Shown one piece after another: positions 30,163 to 37,842 of a DNA stretch of 37,842 nucleotides. A model generated the notes under the pieces. The model was given only the letters and a program-made list of their open reading frames with translations. It made no database searches and was not told where the DNA came from. The number at the start of each line of letters is the position of its first letter. Within the stretch, counting starts at the first letter, position 1. Both the position numbers and the translations under genes were made by a program. This DNA is from Chloroflexota bacterium. Lineage in GTDB: Bacteria > Chloroflexota > Dehalococcoidia > JACPQF01. Location: assembly GCA_016190625.1 (NCBI GenBank), contig JACPQF010000096.1, positions 1 to 37,842 of the forward strand, written 5' to 3'.

Positions 30163-30593
30163 ATGGCAGACCAAGGTAGAGTGAAGATTGAGCGCCTGAC
30201 CACAGGCATACCCAGGCTCGACGACATTCTCGATGGGGGCTTCCCCCAAGGCTCTCTCAACATCATTGCCGGTGGGCCTGGGGTGGGAAAGAGCATCATG
30301 ACGCTTCAAATGCTCTTCCACCAAGCGCGCCAGGAAAACAAGTCGGTCTATTTCGTCACTATCTCAGAACCATCGATCAAATTCATTCGCTACATGCACC
30401 AGTTTGACTTCTTCGACCAAAGCCTTTTCCCGGACAAAGTGGAGTTCTTCGATCTGAGCGCCGAGGCGAAAAGCCAGAACCCACTGGCGGCTATCGAGAC
30501 CGTCCGGCGGGAAGTGACAGAGAAGGAGCACGCCATCGTCGCCATCGACTCCTTCAAAGCCTTGCGAGAGCGGTTTGCCGACGCCGCGGCAGC
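30163..30593 (+). CDS. KaiC-like ATPase 1, N-terminal part (frameshift at about 30593)
   Basis: The first 143 residues of a tandem KaiC-like RecA-fold ATPase. It has TTGIPRLDDILDGGFPQGS, Walker A GGPGVGKS (37-44), SVYFVTISEPSIKFIRYM and the Walker B strand HAIVAIDSFKAL. The start is ATG at 30163, with AAGGAG at 30149-30154. After ERFADAAA the frame becomes unrelated sequence and stops at 30681, while the expected [15 protein letters not shown] continues in the next frame from 30594. One missing base near GCAGCCAG (30588-30595) explains it. The restored protein would be about 504 residues with two ATPase domains. This may be a sequencing error. Confidence 0.8.
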
Positions 30594-31676
30594 CAGATCG
30601 GCGTTTACGGGCTGGTCACCGAACTTGCCGTCTGGGGCGTTACTGCCTTTCTGGTTGGCGAGTACGACGACCAGGAAATAAAACATCTCCCCGAGTTCTT
30701 CTCTGCCGATGGCATCATAAGCCTCTCGGTCGCCTCCGAAGGCTTCCGCGCCGTTCGCCAGTTGGAGGTGCTCAAGCTGAGAGGGTCACGCTACGTCTCT
30801 GGCATCCACTTCTTCGATATCACGCCGGCGGGCATCGTCGTCTATCCGCGGATCACCGTTCCCCCCGAACATGAGGTCAAACAGGCGCGGACCGGGGCGC
30901 CGCGATCGTGCATGGGTGTGTCCGGCCTTGACGAGATGCTGGGTGGCGGGCTTCCTCCTCGCAGCACCACTTTGCTCCAGGGCGCGAGCGGCACCGGCAA
31001 GACGCTTCTAGCCCTGAGCTTTCTGGTCCAAGGGGCGCGGAAGGGCGAGCCCGGCCTGTTTTTGACCTTGGAAGAAGCGCGCGAGCAGCTTATCGAGGTG
31101 GGGGCCAGTCGAGGCTGGCCCCTCGATCAGCTCGACCAGCAGGGGCTTCTCCGGATCGTTTACTTCTCGCCAGTAGAGCTGGCTGCCGATGCCCTGCTTC
31201 AGAAAGCGAAGGACTTCATAGATGAAGTGGGGGTCAGGCGTGCTGCTATCGACTCACTCTCGTCCCTCGATCTAAGCCTGGGTTCGCATGGCCGTTTGCG
31301 GGAGTTGGCTTACGCCCTCGTCAAGACATTCAGAATGAAGGGCGTCACCACCATCCTGACCCATGAGGTATTGGAGCTGGTGGGCACAGGCCAGCTCTCG
31401 GGCTTTGGCTTCAGCTCCATCGTGGACAACATCATCCTGTTGCGGTACGTAGAGGTGGAAGCCCGCCTGACGCGCGCAGTCTCGGTGCTGAAGATGCGAG
31501 GGTCGGGCCACGATCACGTCTTGCGAGAAATGCAGATCACCGCCGACAGCATACGGGTCAAGGAAGCCTTCCAGCAGTTCCGAGGAGTGCTCACCGGCGT
31601 GCCCACACCTGCAGAGAGCGACGTCGGACCCCGACGACGTGGTCCTTCCTCGAGAAGGACTACTGATGGGGGCTGA
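30594..31676 (+). CDS. KaiC-like ATPase 1, C-terminal part (continues 30163-30593)
   Basis: About 360 residues in the shifted frame. It completes domain 1 ([20 protein letters not shown], then [20 protein letters not shown]) and carries domain 2: [17 protein letters not shown], Walker [15 protein letters not shown], the glutamate pair in [28 protein letters not shown] (Walker B), then [17 protein letters not shown]. Where Synechococcus KaiC has the phosphorylated Ser431-Thr432, this protein has Ser-Ser ([15 protein letters not shown]), so autophosphorylation is conceivable. If read independently, a start at TTG 30762 is available, but the conserved sequence upstream argues for one gene. The last 17 bases overlap the end of the convergent histidine kinase gene. 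Confidence 0.82.
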
Positions 31677-32855
31677 GCGCCTGCTCAAGCGTAAAGTAAA
31701 ACGTGCTGCCCTTGCCGCGCCCAGAGGGCACCCGGCTCTCGACCCAGATTCGCCCACCGTGCGCTTCCACCAGCATTTTGGCGATGTATAGACCCAAACC
31801 GAGGCCGTGTCGCCCTTCCGAACGCCCTTGGCTCTGTAGAAGCGCTCGAAGATGTGGGTGAGGTCACCCGCAGCTATGCCGGTTCCCTGGTCGGATACCG
31901 ATATCCTTACTTCCTCATTTGTCTTCTCTGCCTCAACCAGGACCTCAGTCTCTGGCGGAGAGTACTTCAAGGCGTTGGTGAGCAGGTTCATGAAAATGCG
32001 CTCGAGGGCGTCCGGGTCGGCGCTGACCGGAGGCAGGTCTGGCGCGATGTCCAGTTTGACCCGCCCGATATCCATCGCAGCCCTGGCTCGCTCCAGCAGG
32101 TCGGACACGAACGCTCTCAGGTCCACAGGATTTCTCTCCAGCCTCAACTGCCCGGCCTCAAGGCGCGCCGACTCCACCATGTCCTGAATCATCGCGCCCA
32201 TTCGCTTGGCGCCGGTGAGGATGGCCGCCGAGCTCTTGCGCAAGATGTCGGGCTTGTCCAAGGATCGCTGAATCATTTGCGCCTGCCCCTGAATTATCGT
32301 TAGCGGGGCGCGTAGGTCGTGAGAGACCATGCTTACGAAATTCTCCCTCGCCTGCTCCAACTCCCGCAGCTCGGTCACGTCACGGAAGGCGTTCATCGAT
32401 AGCAGTATCTTGCCTCGGTCGTCTCGCACCGCGTTCCCGCTGAACGCAAGACGGCGCCGGGATCCATCGGGTCGCACGAGGATGACCTCCTGGTCAGTGA
32501 ACCGCTCGCCACGCTGAGCCCGGTTGGTCGGATACTCCCCAGGGGCCAACGGCTGTCCTTCCGCGGAAGGATCAGGCTGCCGCAGGTCGAGCTGGCAGAA
32601 GTCCGCCACCGTCCACCCGTCCTCCTTCTCGGGCAATCGTAGGATCTCCCGGGCCACCGGATTCATCAGAGTTATGCGGCCGGTGGCGTCTACCACCACC
32701 ACACCCTCTGTCAGGCTCTCCAGAAGAGCGACCATCTCCGTCGCCCGACGCTCAGCTTCCTCGGCTAATTCCTGCTGTCGGACACCGGCAAGTACCAGCC
32801 GCTGGTTGATCTCCCTTAGTTCGTCGAGCAGGCGTTCGCGCTCTCTTCCAGCCAT
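31660..32855 (-). CDS. Cytosolic PAS-domain histidine kinase, frameshift at about 31807
   Basis: The order is an N-terminal coiled coil (1-40), a PAS domain (about 40-165, [20 protein letters not shown] and [12 protein letters not shown]), the HisKA phosphoacceptor box [19 protein letters not shown], then the ATPase with N box [11 protein letters not shown]1 [11 protein letters not shown] and F box [10 protein letters not shown]. There is no membrane segment. At GDTAS the frame breaks: the G2 box [19 protein letters not shown] is in the next frame from 31806 and runs to the stop TAG at 31660-31662. One missing G (the sequence reads ACGGCCTC) explains it, giving a protein of about 398 residues. 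Without the fix the frame continues to 31272 as nonsense. The gene converges on kaiC-like gene 1 with overlapping ends. Confidence 0.82.
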
Positions 32856-32925: not shown

Positions 32926-33576
32926 TCACGCGTCTCGGTTATTCTCGTCCAGATGCCACTGCATAGGATTGTTCACGATGTATTGGCGAATGCTATCCAA
33001 ATCCCCTTGGTCACGAATGACGTGTTCGAAGTGATTGCGTTGCCAAACAACTAGCCCCGAAATAGCAGATAGCTCCCTCATCCGTCGGCTGACCGCGGAC
33101 TTGAAGCCGACGACGAATGATCCCAGAGATTTGCGCGCTACTCCTCGGGGAGGCGGCGCTGGAAATGGGACCGGTCCGTCAACTTGTAGGGCCCCGTCAA
33201 CTTGTAGGGCCCTGTCTATTTGTAGGGCCCCGTCTATTTGTAGGGCCCCGTCTATTTGTAGGGGCGACTGGCAGTCGCCCTTCCCCGAGGTCCCGCTATT
33301 CTGCGGCTCCCCAATGATCACAATGCCATGTACGTGATTGGGCATGACCACGAATTGATCCAGGGGGATCTCGCGGCGAATCCCCGCCGACCTTGTCCAT
33401 TCGTCGCGAACAATATCGCCGTAGGCACTGGTTTTCATCTGACCGTTTTCGATGTGGCCGAACAGGGATTGCCGTTCGTGGGTGCAGATGGTGATGAAAT
33501 ACGCCCCGGCCTGTGAGTAATCGTATCCCCGCAGGCGCGTGGAATGGCGCTGATGTTGCTCTGGATGATAGGTCAT
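32926..33576 (-). CDS. REP-associated tyrosine transposase (RAYT, IS200-like)
   Basis: A 216-residue single-domain HUH nuclease of the Y1/RAYT group, which is linked with spread of REP palindromes. Catalytic features are MPNHVHGIVI (His81, His83), WQRNHFEHVIR (from 178) and Tyr199 in RQYIVNNPMQWH. The N-terminal signature DYSQAGAYFITICTHERQ is typical. The start is taken as ATG at 33576, with a weak GGAAG site; TTG at 33585 is an alternative. Between the HUH motif and the Tyr helix lies an insertion (about residues 100-135) encoded by a REP palindrome and five 18-bp repeats, giving repeated QIDGAL/QVDGAL. The frame stays open, so the protein may still fold, with the insert as a loop. Confidence 0.9.
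   Translation of the reverse strand: MTYHPEQHQRHSTRLRGYDYSQAGAYFITICTHERQSLFGHIENGQMKTSAYGDIVRDEWTRSAGIRREIPLDQFVVMPNHVHGIVIIGEPQNSGTSGKGDCQSPLQIDGALQIDGALQIDRALQVDGALQVDGPVPFPAPPPRGVARKSLGSFVVGFKSAVSRRMRELSAISGLVVWQRNHFEHVIRDQGDLDSIRQYIVNNPMQWHLDENNRDA
33176..33265. repeat. Five tandem 18-bp repeats inside the RAYT gene
   Basis: Units at 33176, 33194, 33212, 33230 and 33248. The consensus on the plus strand is CCGTCTATTTGTAGGGCC, with CAACTT in place of CTATTT in the first two units. Because 18 is a multiple of 3, the reading frame is kept and each unit adds six residues. The last unit ends in GTAGGGGC and runs directly into the REP palindrome at 33262-33280. Confidence 0.95.
33262..33280. 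repeat. REP palindrome inside the RAYT coding sequence
   Basis: Arms GGGCGACTG and CAGTCGCCC with one central G. It is the same element as at 32878-32898, but here it is translated in the RAYT frame as part of KGDCQSP. Confidence 0.85.
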
Positions 33577-33617
33577 TTCTTCCAACCCATGATGTGCTTC
33601 AAGATCTCAAGGGCTTG

Positions 33618-33645: not shown

Positions 33646-34533
33646 CTACTGCCCCAACGCCCTCACTGCGGATCGATAGATGGTCTTGCCTGCCTCCCCC
33701 TTCTTGATGGCGTAGTTGAGCGCCACTAGCCGGTCGAGAGAGCGCGTCAGGTCCTGGCGCCGCAGGCCCGTCGCCGCCGCCACCGCCTCGACCGTCCCCT
33801 CCTTCAGACCCGCTAGCGCCTGTAGCACGACGATCTCCTGGTCGGTCAGGCCAGGGTAGGCCGGCAGTCTCGCCGCACGCGGCTCGGGCACGCCGGTGAT
33901 GATGCCCCGGTACTCCTTGAGGGCCTCGCCCACCACCATCCCCCGCGGGGTTATCTCGTAGGCTCGCATGTCCTTGCTATGGCCGCTGCTGCGCATCTTC
34001 ACCACCGTGATCATCCGCCTGAGCTGCCCCTCGATCTCGACGTAGCGCATCAGAACGATGTCGTCGGCGAGGAAAGAGATGACGTGAGGGCTGAACCGCA
34101 ACTCAGAGTAAGACTCGGTCACTTCCACCGTCATAAGCACCGTGATGCCCGTGCCGGTCAGCGCTCCTACCATCCTGTACATCGACTCCCGGAAATCCTC
34201 GCGGAAGGTGGGAGCCAGGGCCAGCTCGAAGCCTGACAGGGAATCGATGACCAGCCGTTTCGCTCCTATCTGCGCCACCACATCGCCGATCTCCTTGAGT
34301 GCTTCGTCCACGGAGAGGTCCAACGGGCGCAAATAGATCACCCTCAGCTTTCCCTCGCCGACCATCTTCGCCAGGTCGAAGCCAAGCGCTTTGGCCCGTC
34401 TCAAGTACTCCGGGGGATGCTCCTCGAAGATGGCGATGACGCCGGGTTCGCCCCGCCGCACTCCCTCGACGATGAACTGCGTGCCCAACACGGTCTTCCC
34501 CGCGCCGGAAGGGCCGGCCACGAGGACCGCATC
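33646..34533 (-). CDS. KaiC-like ATPase 2, C-terminal part with winged-helix tail (continues 34534-35339)
   Basis: About 295 residues in the frame after a one-base deletion. It holds domain 2 with Walker A VAGPSGAGKTVLG, the glutamate pair in VIAIFEEHPPEYL, Walker B RLVIDSLSGFEL and KMRSSGHSKDMRAYEIT. The position equivalent to KaiC Ser431-Thr432 is Ser-Phe (VISFLADDIVLMRY). After about residue 220 a C-terminal extension, LTDQEIVVLQALAGLKEGTV followed by LRRQDLTRSLDRLVALNYA, reads as a winged-helix domain; it is absent from KaiC and from the other two homologues here. This suggests a link to DNA binding or a protein contact. Upstream sequence is in the other frame. Confidence 0.82.
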   Translation of the reverse strand, partial: DAVLVAGPSGAGKTVLGTQFIVEGVRRGEPGVIAIFEEHPPEYLRRAKALGFDLAKMVGEGKLRVIYLRPLDLSVDEALKEIGDVVAQIGAKRLVIDSLSGFELALAPTFREDFRESMYRMVGALTGTGITVLMTVEVTESYSELRFSPHVISFLADDIVLMRYVEIEGQLRRMITVVKMRSSGHSKDMRAYEITPRGMVVGEALKEYRGIITGVPEPRAARLPAYPGLTDQEIVVLQALAGLKEGTVEAVAAATGLRRQDLTRSLDRLVALNYAIKKGEAGKTIYRSAVRALGQ

Positions 34534-35339
34534 CCGGCCGGAACACCGCCGCCCGTCATCTCGTCCAGACCGGCCACCCCCGTGGAGACCAGTGCTTTTG
34601 TCAGAGCGACCTCCCGTTCCTCCCTTCGCTTGAGCATACGGGGGAAGACCTGGAGACCATCCTCGGTGATCCGGAAGGTATGCAGGCCCGGCAGCGACGC
34701 CTGCCCCCGCATCTTCATCACCTGCAGCTTGCGCACGATGGAGTTGCGCTCCAAACTCTGATACAGCCAGATGATCCCGTCGGCCACCGTGAAAACCGGG
34801 TTGTCGCGGATCTCGCTTTCCACATATTCGCCCACCAGAAATGTGGTCGCCTGCCAGCTCGTAAGATAGAGCGCCAGGCGTTGCAGGAAGTGCTGCAGAC
34901 CCATCTCCCCGGTCTCGATAGACGCCGCCGTCCGCACCACCGTGCGAAAGGAGTCCACCACCACGAGCCCCGGGGCGTATTGCTCGAGCTCTCGCACGAT
35001 TCTCTCCAAGACCTTGCTCAGGTCCTTTTCCATGACCTCCTGGCTCAGGTTGATGAAGCGGATGACCGAGTCTAGTTTACTGGAGTCAAAGAAGGACATC
35101 TGCTGCTGGTAGCGCAGCATCTTGAGCGGCGGCTCGCCCAGCACCGTGAAGTAGAGCGCCGGTCGGTCGGGAGTGGCGTTGGCGAACAGGATTTGGTGGG
35201 CCAGGGTAGTTTTGCCCGTCCCCGGCGCGCCGGCGATCAGGTTGAACGAGTACTCGGGCAGTCCATCCCCGAGCACCGGGTCGAGGCCCGGCACACCCGT
35301 GGGCAGCTTCCTAATGCTTACTCTTCGTGATTCCGTCAA
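34534..35339 (-). CDS. KaiC-like ATPase 2, N-terminal part (frameshift at about 34533)
   Basis: The first 268 residues of a tandem KaiC-like ATPase. It has KLPTGVPGLDPVLGDGLPEY, Walker A IAGAPGTGKTTLA, ALYFTVLGEPPLKMLRYQ, Walker B PGLVVVDSFRTVV and domain 2 up to GLDEMTGGGVPAG. There the expected DAVLVAGPSGAGKT moves to the next frame; one extra G in GCCGGGATG restores it, for a total of about 564 residues. The start is TTG at 35339, with GGAGGT 6 bases upstream. The TTG overlaps the stop codon of the helical protein gene (TTGA), indicating translational coupling. Unshifted, the frame runs to 34401. Confidence 0.82.
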
Positions 35340-35809
35340 TCCTTCACCTCCGTTGAGGCCGGACCCGTTCCGCCAACCTGAACATCCGGCCATATCTGAG
35401 CCATCTGGCGCTGGGCGATATCCTGGCCGACGAAGGTGCCCAGCAAAAAGATAAAGTTGGCGAGCAGTGCAGTCAGGCTGCGGCTTACCCCTGCCGGGTC
35501 TCGCCCTTTCACGCTCTCGTGCAGGCCCTTCAGACAGGCGCCGTCCTTGTGGGAAGGAATCGCCACCTCGACGCCGTCCAGGGCGCCCTTCTCCAGAGAA
35601 GGATCGACCTTGGCCAGGTGCAAGGCGCGGGCCATGAGAGCATTCACGCCAGCGGGGCCGATCAGGTCGGCCACCTGCTGGTGTATCTTCTGGCAAGCTC
35701 TCTCCGCCGCATCCGCCAGTACGCCAACGGAAGGACTCTCAACCCCTTTTGCCTCGTGCACAAGAAACCGTCGGGCCAGGTCGCGAAACTCGTCAGTGGG
35801 CTGTTGCAT
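35336..35809 (-). CDS. 157-residue helical protein between two kaiC-like genes, function unknown
   Basis: Not recognised. It is predicted mostly helical: an N-terminal amphipathic part (DEFRDLARRFLVHEAKG), a central part (VLADAAERACQKIHQQVADL, then GPAGVNALMARALHLAK) and a hydrophobic stretch at about 111-129 (LTALLANFIFLLGTFVG) that may be a buried or membrane helix. Two cysteines (39, 92) are present. The ATG at 35809 shares its A with the stop of kaiC-like gene 3 (TGATG), and the stop overlaps the TTG start of kaiC-like gene 2 (TTGA). Such tight coupling suggests a protein made in step with the ATPases, perhaps a binding partner. The frame is open further upstream to 36469, but that part is antisense-frame shadow of kaiC-like gene 3. 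Confidence 0.82.
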   Translation of the reverse strand: MQQPTDEFRDLARRFLVHEAKGVESPSVGVLADAAERACQKIHQQVADLIGPAGVNALMARALHLAKVDPSLEKGALDGVEVAIPSHKDGACLKGLHESVKGRDPAGVSRSLTALLANFIFLLGTFVGQDIAQRQMAQIWPDVQVGGTGPASTEVKD

Positions 35810-37281
35810 CAAGGATTCTCCTGCTGCCGACCTCCCGTCGTCCTTTTCACACGCATCTCGGAGGGCAGCCGGGCGATACCCGTGAGGATACCTTCGGCGC
35901 TCTCCATTCTTTCCAGAACCTTCATGCCCTTGTCGGTGATGACGTACTGCCGGATCGAGTGATCGTGGGCGCTGTCCCGCATCTTGAGGACGGAGAGAAT
36001 ACGAAATAGCTCGCCGCGAAACTCGACGTAGCGCATCAGCACCAGGTTCTCGGCTAGCCCGGCCAGTGGCGAACTCGAGAAATCCAATTCCGGCCCCACT
36101 ATCTGGGGGATCTCCTTGACGATCAAAGAGGTCACGTTCCTGGCCCGCAGCGTTGCCGTCAGACAGGCCATGTAGCCGAACTGTCGCTTGTCGTCGACGA
36201 AGGCCTGCTGCAGCTCGTCGACGCCGTCCAGCGCCAGCCGGTGTGGGGCAAAGCTCTCGACGCGGCACAAGATCTCCCAGGTGACCTCGTCGAGGACCAT
36301 GTCGACCGGGTCGCGATGCAGGATTTCCACTCTGCCATCCTCGATCGCCGCCGCCAGATCCATGCCGAGAAGGCGCGCCTTGTCGATCAACTGGCGGGGA
36401 GTCTCCCGAAACCCTACCAGGAGACTTTTCTGCCCCCGCCGGGCGCCCTCCAGGATGAACTGCAGGCAAGCCGTGGTCTTGCCCGTCCCTATCGATCCCG
36501 CCAGAACCGTGGCGCTGCCGCCAAGGAGGCCGCCCTCCATCATCCCGTCCAGCTCTGGCAGCCCCAGCGGTACCCTTTCGGCGCTAAGTCCGACATCCCG
36601 CAGCTCGCAGAGGGACTCGATCCGGGGAAAAACGGTGATGCCGTCGCCGTCGATGCGCATCGAGTGAAGCCCTAACAAGTTGGCGAGGCCGCGCATCTTG
36701 CTTGCCCTGATAGTGCGCACGGTCTGGGTGCCGATATCCAACTTCCCCATCTCCAGAATGCCGTCGGCCATGGTAAACTCGGCGTAGGGATGCTCGCCGG
36801 GGCGCTCTACCACGCTGCTCGTCACCACGGTGGTGGCGTTCAGAGCGGCGAGAGAAGGCCCCAGAGTGTACATGAACGTTCTCATCTCCGGCGCCTGGGG
36901 GTACAGGTCACGGATGGTCATTAGCCCATCGACGATGACAAGCGCGGCCTGGTGGTCCTTTGCCGCCTGGGTTAGCGCATTGGTAACCTGCGCCAGCCCC
37001 TGGACGATCAGGGGATACATGCTGAGGAGGAAGACTCGCTCCCCGACGACATCTTCGTCGAAGAAGGAGAAGGCCTTCATCCGCTGGATGAGTTTGGTCG
37101 GAGGTTCGGAGAGGGTGGAGACGTAGAGGACGTTATGGCCCAGCGATGCGGCGTGGAAGGCCATCTGCATGGTCAGCGTGGTCTTCCCGGAACCTGCCGG
37201 GCCGACCACCAGCAGCACGTCCCCTTCGGGGACCCCTCCCCCGAGGATAAGGTCGAGACTAGGGATGCCCGTCTCAAGCAT
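35809..37281 (-). CDS. KaiC-like ATPase 3 (tandem RecA-fold domains)
   Basis: A 490-residue intact protein, first of the three-gene operon. Domain 1 starts at residue 1 with ETGIPSLDLILGGGVPEGD, Walker A GPAGSGKT (27-34), VLYVSTLSEPPTKLIQRM and Walker B ALVIVDGLMTIRD. Domain 2 has ELDGMMEGGLLGGS, Walker A AGSIGTGKTTACL, VGFRETPRQLIDKA (Arg-Glu in place of the KaiC Glu-Glu pair), RLALDGVDELQ, and ends with LKMRDSAHDHSIRQYVIT. At the KaiC Ser431-Thr432 position it has Ala-Gly (SPLAGLAENLVLMRY), so that phosphosite is lost. The ATG at 37281 is preceded by GAAGGAAG. The stop overlaps the next start (TGATG). Confidence 0.9.
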   Translation of the reverse strand: MLETGIPSLDLILGGGVPEGDVLLVVGPAGSGKTTLTMQMAFHAASLGHNVLYVSTLSEPPTKLIQRMKAFSFFDEDVVGERVFLLSMYPLIVQGLAQVTNALTQAAKDHQAALVIVDGLMTIRDLYPQAPEMRTFMYTLGPSLAALNATTVVTSSVVERPGEHPYAEFTMADGILEMGKLDIGTQTVRTIRASKMRGLANLLGLHSMRIDGDGITVFPRIESLCELRDVGLSAERVPLGLPELDGMMEGGLLGGSATVLAGSIGTGKTTACLQFILEGARRGQKSLLVGFRETPRQLIDKARLLGMDLAAAIEDGRVEILHRDPVDMVLDEVTWEILCRVESFAPHRLALDGVDELQQAFVDDKRQFGYMACLTATLRARNVTSLIVKEIPQIVGPELDFSSSPLAGLAENLVLMRYVEFRGELFRILSVLKMRDSAHDHSIRQYVITDKGMKVLERMESAEGILTGIARLPSEMRVKRTTGGRQQENP

Positions 37282-37472: not shown

Positions 37473-37667
37473 AGGGGCGAAGCATTGGCGCTGGGACTCG
37501 GACTGCCCTTCACGCCCGTTCGCCAGTGCTTCGCCCGCCCCGGTTCTGTTTTCTCACCAAGCCTGTTCAGCGCTAACAGGCCAGAGCCAACAGTTGACCG
37601 GGCGGGCGAAGCATTCGCAAATTCTATTGAGAGCTCCGAATGAACTGGTTCTGCGAATGCTTCGCCC
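37473..37667. repeat. Cluster of REP-like palindromes (GGGGCGAAGCATT family)
   Basis: Three hairpins in a row. AGGGGCGAAGCATTGGCG (37473-37490) pairs with CGCCAGTGCTTCGCCC (37521-37536) with one mismatch. GCCTGTT (37561-37567) pairs with AACAGGC (37575-37581). GGGCGAAGCATTCGCA (37604-37619) pairs perfectly with TGCGAATGCTTCGCCC (37652-37667). The outer ends read GTAGGGGCGA and CGCCCCTAC, the same head as the REPs near the RAYT gene. An open frame on the minus strand through this region (37274-37747) is only translated repeat. Confidence 0.8.
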
Positions 37668-37842
37668 CTACATGAGGACGCCAACTCGCCGCAAAAACAA
37701 TGTGACTGCGTAGGTTCAGCCTTCTTCCAAGGCCTTGCGCAGTTCATTTGGCTAAGACTGCCACGGGGGTGGAATCGTTGCAGGAAAGGATGGGATTGCC
37801 GGAGCGCACGGTGGGTGCTGTAGAAAGGAGGCGTCCCCCCCC
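37668..37842. other. Right end of window, no complete gene
   Basis: No complete gene is seen. AAAGGAGG at 37824-37831 looks like a ribosome binding site for a plus-strand gene that would begin just outside the window. The window ends in a run of eight C. Confidence 0.4.

Follow-up and report, generated by a model that had tools for sequence, protein, structure and literature searches.

On the minus strand of a 37,842-nucleotide contig from a Chloroflexota bacterium (JACPQF010000096.1, assembly GCA_016190625.1, Dehalococcoidia; this whole stretch is hereafter 'the window'), a gene for a 157-residue helical protein, which we call hel, lies between two genes for KaiC-like ATPases, here named kaiC-like gene 1 (upstream of hel) and kaiC-like gene 2 (the third gene, 3' of hel). 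We conclude, at a probability of about 0.62, that one clade of two-domain KaiCs has hel as its dedicated partner and that the two together form the core of a signalling module working without KaiA and KaiB. A first-pass annotation of this DNA had named hel as a candidate that might partner or regulate KaiC-type ATPases. Linkage across genomes and the lack of a match to any known family now support that proposal; binding to KaiC and the direction of control are what we infer.

Linkage was surveyed by searching 84,980 genomes with an alignment of KaiC only (A3), hel being sought afterwards with a profile that held no hel sequence from the surveyed loci, although locus L134 lies on the same contig as L021. 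At 78 of the 80 loci chosen in this way by KaiC sequence, the gene immediately 5' of kaiC on the same strand is hel; at the other two, the KaiC gene lies 56 and 179 bases from a contig end. The hel-kaiC loci surveyed represent 12 phyla. Among pairs from other genomes, the stop codon of hel and the start codon of kaiC overlap in 63 of 77, with a mode of exactly 4 bases, and because overlapping codons recur at this frequency, the coupling is far beyond chance. The gene order could in principle be an accident of operon packing without any functional link, since adjacency by itself is never proof of interaction, but such an accident would have to repeat one order, mostly with overlapping codons, across 12 phyla; we regard it as extremely improbable and strongly disfavour it.

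Searches that start from hel concur, and the check put forward in the first-pass annotation, whether homologues lie beside kaiC-like genes, comes out in favour. A hel profile gave matches in 25 of 400 Chloroflexota genomes, the confident ones adjoining, with few exceptions, the 5' end of a double-KaiC gene. In samples of 299 Pseudomonadota, 247 Acidobacteriota and 246 Planctomycetota genomes, hel is patchy (1 to 10 genomes each), and nearly all real matches adjoin kaiC. Eight whole genomes carry hel once or twice each; except for one solitary copy in Zavarzinella, it adjoins kaiC or a further hel gene. Pairs of hel and kaiC, followed by a kinase and a receiver or GGDEF-kinase, are also found on plasmids of Paracoccus and Caballeronia. 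The window's own genome holds two further hel copies on contig C109, one of which overlaps an intact kaiC gene with a winged helix-turn-helix (wHTH) tail. This genome's third hel (L015:6503-6937, plus strand) has no kaiC of its own and stands upstream of B12-binding-protein-like and methyltransferase-like genes.

At L068 (G211:C27), two divergent pairs follow one another on one strand in the order hel-kaiC-hel-kaiC. At L081, L084-L090, L092-L095, L098, L104, L118, L119 and L121, a second hel lies 5' of hel-kaiC, on the same strand or divergent, and is extended at its C-terminus by a conserved helical region; L081 is labelled Betaproteobacteria, and the others are Acidobacteriota or unplaced.

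Tight coupling of this kind would also be expected of an assembly chaperone or stabilising subunit, which would be translated just before KaiC, so that nascent KaiC folds or hexamerises on it, and which would have no regulatory role. The constant position of hel 5' of kaiC and the codon overlap in most pairs are as a co-translational assembly factor would show, and hel is small and mostly helical. We consider this explanation unlikely: a receiver-hel fusion (described below) and the tandem hel paralogues of Terriglobia, with their extra C-terminal region, point to signalling rather than folding, and other two-domain KaiCs within the same hel-bearing genomes do without hel.

The KaiCs linked to hel are a distinct group. 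A phylogeny of 51 KaiCs built with IQ-TREE places the hel-linked sequences together and eight of the nine KaiCs without hel apart from them, both KaiB-linked ones included; the ninth sits on a very long branch, and where such long branches meet, the deep joins are unsure. Hel-clade KaiCs have two PF06745 domains, each with a Walker A motif. The Walker A lysine of both domains and the CII glutamate E318 are present in 83/83 sequences and CII E319 in 81/83. Hallmarks of the clock protein are missing: CI E77 is replaced by Gly and T432 by Phe in all 83, while S431 remains Ser in 82. A KaiB-linked KaiC from a hel-bearing genome (L216) keeps both the E-E and the S-T pairs.

The window's kaiC-like gene 1 belongs elsewhere. 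Together with the upstream kaiC genes of L050, L052 and L053 it forms a separate clade (support 99/99), which by sequence identifies it as a Chloroflexota-specific paralogue. Its CII catalytic pair reads R-E and its phospho-site positions A-G, with no Ser or Thr, so that it is possibly altered in catalysis. The kaiC/hel/kaiC unit noted in the first pass is present, but its upstream kaiC is a Chloroflexota addition outside the core hel-kaiC pair.

As for hel itself, it is a protein family without an entry in the libraries searched and without a match among solved folds. No sequence match was obtained in Pfam, NCBIfam, PADLOC, PHROGs or PDB; the window hel matches nothing in Pfam even with the threshold at E=10, and an 89-member hel set has none in Pfam or NCBIfam either. 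A clear match to an unrelated known family, which the first-pass annotation had named as an outcome that would speak against a partnership, was given by none of the family libraries searched. The AlphaFold2 model built from 87 homologues is confident (predicted local distance difference test score, pLDDT, 89.5; predicted template modelling score, pTM, 0.83) and places helices at residues 6-19, 28-67, 96-100, 105-127 and 129-139; helices of 14 and 40 residues precede a short hairpin region, after which two more helices follow. A Foldseek search with this model found no match in PDB (best E 1.3) and none among viral models. The near-invariant positions are A12, L42, L46, G51, G54, L58, L63, L122, L123, G128 and W140, with R61 the only charged one.

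Several candidate relatives of hel were weighed. Matches to NagX (E=0.014) and v-FLIP (E=0.2) were taken as chance. A phage or defence role was set aside, there being no PHROGs or PADLOC match and, with one family member as the query, none in phage records; on KaiC, PADLOC gave only short P-loop matches, and no full defence-system model was satisfied. A divergent, mostly KaiC-adjacent group (L031, L032, L033, L035, L041, L047, L048) is supported as homologous to hel (97.8%), and homology of a weakly hel-like Ktedonobacteria-type group (L037, L039, L043, L044) is not (hhalign 6%). Proteins of L038, L042 and L049 have a possible C-terminal hel-like domain, for which a comparison gives 37%; their conserved N-terminal 'LRNTERFGLIHLYF' region has no Pfam name. 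Matches in L040 (pantothenate-synthetase-like), L163, L164 and L173 were dismissed as false.

The cyanobacterial KaiABC system is the obvious comparison. It shares with the hel loci a two-domain KaiC ATPase, a conserved pair of CII catalytic glutamates and one or more small partner genes beside kaiC. The hel-bearing genomes differ from it in their partners: KaiA (PF07688) was found in 0/17 of them, a control search being positive only in S. elongatus, and in none of 400 Chloroflexota genomes above the cut-off, while KaiB exceeds its cut-off in 3/17 and, in the two genomes checked, adjoins a different KaiC (G154:C51 and G465:C115). No KaiB was detected in the window's genome, which is 65% complete; the earlier description of the operon as lacking kaiA and kaiB holds for that genome within this limit. 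The KaiCs differ too, those of the hel clade having S-F in place of S431-T432 and G-E in place of CI E77-E78, and hel is unrelated to KaiA and KaiB by every test run.

Could hel nevertheless be a C-terminal domain of KaiA (or a KaiB domain) that has diverged very far, and the system a distant KaiABC clock? By position hel would have the same role, and KaiA3 (Synechocystis Sll0485; Koebler et al. 2024, PMC11372060), which consists of a receiver and a KaiA-like C domain, has a layout like that of the receiver-hel fusion. None of the 89 members, however, has a KaiA or KaiB Pfam match, the best PDB fold match reaches only E 1.3 with no KaiA or KaiB entry among the matches listed, the modelled topology differs from the four-helix bundle described for KaiA and, being mostly helical, from the thioredoxin-like fold of KaiB, and the hel-clade KaiC lacks the S431/T432 pair. 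We therefore rejected hel as KaiA or KaiB and hold a diverged origin to be highly improbable; it is strongly disfavoured. KaiA3 is comparable in that it is a small partner specific to one KaiC clade, its gene lies beside kai genes, and it joins a receiver to a helical domain, as in the rare L034 fusion; unlike its KaiA-like C domain, hel has no KaiA similarity and usually stands alone.

Downstream of the pair, the neighbour is often a kinase. At 45 of 77 loci, a gene on the same strand coding for 150 aa or more starts within 200 bp of kaiC; 36 of these genes carry PAS_4 and 31 HATPase_c. The downstream kinases combine PAS, HisKA and HATPase_c domains, with no KaiB-like domain in the Pfam families listed, and a motif ending RQ(H/Q)EL is common to 29 of them. 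In another Chloroflexota genome (G126, L134/L050), the order kaiC-hel-kaiC-wHTH is as in the window, and the kinase follows directly. At L034/L059 (8672-9391, minus strand), a receiver domain is fused to hel behind a GAF-PAS-HD protein and no kaiC was found on the contig; the model of this fusion shows a receiver followed by hel's order of elements, at lower confidence (pLDDT 76.7).

KaiC, hel and PAS histidine kinase form a chain of signalling parts, in which hel could instead be the input sensor of a small ligand or cellular state, with KaiC a mere relay to the kinase. The fusion to a receiver beside a GAF-PAS-HD protein would suit such a sensor. Against it, the near-invariant residues of hel are mostly hydrophobic or Gly, which has the look of packing or a protein interface and not of a ligand pocket, and we give the sensor explanation little credence.

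Pairing of kaiC with a kinase gene has a precedent in De Luca et al. 2011 (PMC3164672), which describes three kaiC gene contexts, KaiCs with S-F phospho-site profiles and heterogeneous contexts and, in a figure legend, 'HP' genes. Its kaiC-histidine kinase pairs, such as Ramlibacter Rta_04330/04340, resemble those hel loci at which a kinase gene comes after kaiC and kaiB is missing; in the window a transposase-like gene intervenes. The kinase of that class, as described there, has a KaiB/SasA-like N-terminal domain, whereas the kinase of the hel loci has PAS and an RQHEL helix. The conserved feature of our loci, the upstream hel, is not described in the parts of that paper available to us, although hel may be drawn as an unnamed gene in its figures.

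Taken together, the preferred reading is that hel, co-translated with a two-ring ATPase, is most likely its stoichiometric regulator, and that this ATPase signals to a PAS kinase. In such a scheme, hel would be synthesized in step with KaiC and in equimolar amount, and would bind the KaiC ring at a fixed stoichiometry. It would then set the ATPase or autokinase state of KaiC (nucleotide or phosphorylation), the role that KaiA and KaiB have in cyanobacteria, and the ring would pass its signal on to the PAS kinase. Some Chloroflexota would add a second KaiC, a paralogue whose CII active site is changed, and the winged helix on their main KaiC may offer a route to DNA. All four parts are recognisable in the window: the KaiC paralogue, hel, KaiC with its wHTH and, behind a transposase-like gene, the kinase. 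A bolder version, in which hel drives KaiC independently of KaiA as part of a bacterial timer or switch in at least 12 phyla, with one phosphorylatable CII residue and a PAS kinase as readout, is tentative and on balance rather doubtful.

Some observations weigh against the preferred reading. The survey was seeded with hel-adjacent KaiCs, and because A3 was built from hel-linked sequences, its result concerns the linkage of that clade and not of KaiCs generally. That hel and KaiC diverge together, their distances being correlated (Mantel r=0.77; the largest of 999 shuffles gave 0.18), speaks for the partnership, but the correlation reflects shared species history too. The kinase is missing or non-adjacent in about 40% of loci. 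Lone hel copies exist (L176, a degenerate copy in G181 and, in Terriglobia, a tandem copy at a distance of 10 kb), and the second hel copy on C109 is likewise alone, though a pair lies on the same contig. Lastly, the window copy may itself be decaying, given a broken kaiC-like gene 2, a transposase-like neighbour and a frameshift in the kinase.

The arrangement in the window is as follows. The first gene, kaiC-like gene 1 (35809-37281, minus strand, as are all genes of this operon), is an open reading frame of 490 aa with two KaiC domains, matching PF06745 in two stretches (E=1.5e-65). Its TGA stop shares one base with the ATG of hel (35336-35809; TGATG at 35807-35811), and the TGA of hel overlaps the TTG start of kaiC-like gene 2 (33646-35339; TTGA at 35336-35339), the latter being the 4-base geometry found to be commonest in other phyla. 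Both junctions are borne out in the sequence, as are the tandem KaiC domains that the first-pass annotation had assigned to the outer genes, those of gene 2 being spread over two frames. The three-gene operon of that annotation is real in genes and junctions, but it had been missed that the third gene is split between two frames, and the operon probably continues beyond it.

In the window, kaiC-like gene 2 encodes a hel-clade KaiC with two KaiC domains and a wHTH. The first domain is read between 35339 and about 34535, where the frame changes, and the second domain with the tail extends from there to 33646, the break (34530-34540) falling within the second domain right before Walker A. Aligned with its relatives L015, L050 and L053, the gene lacks one base in the codon pair GG(G)GAT. 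Because its downstream part is otherwise intact, we take this frameshift to be recent or an assembly error; programmed frameshifting was rejected, the gene being intact in the relatives examined, with no slippery motif seen and two more frameshifts nearby. Those two, in a plus-strand kaiC near 30600 and in the kinase near 31830, bring the number within 30.5-34.6 kb to three, and the long genes inspected elsewhere in the window are single open frames. The cluster possibly reflects sequence errors or low-quality sequence at the contig end, or recent decay.

The winged-helix (MarR/TrmB-like) tail that had been reported for one ATPase is present at 33673-33852. In the 3' fragment of gene 2, residues 224-274 match MarR_2 (E=4.3e-6; score 27.2 bits, cut-off 27), and TrmB is matched as well (6.4e-4); homologous tails are found in the corresponding position of Chloroflexota KaiCs from L050, L052, L053 and contig C109. 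The transcriptional output proposed on its account fits less well as a general scheme: the tail exists, but only in some Chloroflexota, and in the others the output usually seems to be a PAS histidine kinase.

Beyond gene 2 come an IS200/Y1-type transposase-like gene, of the type associated with repetitive extragenic palindromic (REP) elements (32926-33585; PF01797 E=9.4e-4, below the cut-off), and a PAS-HisKA-HATPase histidine kinase (31272-32855) with the motif NxxLxxxxxRQ(H/Q)EL, the proposed last gene of the operon. The window kinase is 63% identical over 328 aa to that of L134/L050 and orthologous to it. From this identity and the shared RQ(H/Q)EL motif, the operon most likely ended in the PAS kinase before the transposase-like gene came between. 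Convergent with the kinase lies a further two-domain kaiC-like gene (30163-31676, plus strand), which contains the frameshift near 30600 and has no hel beside it. Upstream of gene 1, four near-copies of GGGGCGAAGCATT, REP-like and on both strands, occur within 200 bp at 37474-37668; their number is not significant by itself, being reached in 8/100 shuffles. Similar sequence seems present near the hel-kaiC locus of contig C109.

KaiC-family ATPases also act as hubs in archaea, where they are joined to varied sensor and output domains (Makarova et al. 2017, as cited in PMC5847659); in that account, as far as it was available to us, the partner domains are others (HalOD1, receiver fusions) and hel is not mentioned. 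Kai homologues were surveyed by Schmelling et al. 2017 (PMC5520375). A description of hel was not found in the open-access literature searched.

Many bacteria possess KaiC-like ATPases that have neither KaiA nor KaiB beside them. For most of these ATPases partner and role are obscure, and hel is a probable missing partner for one clade of them. Were the timer or switch interpretation true, hel would take the role of KaiA on KaiC. As a small and tightly linked gene present in cultured species of Edaphobacter, Silvibacterium, Polaromonas, Zavarzinella and Paracoccus, hel makes the question of what partners these KaiCs directly testable.

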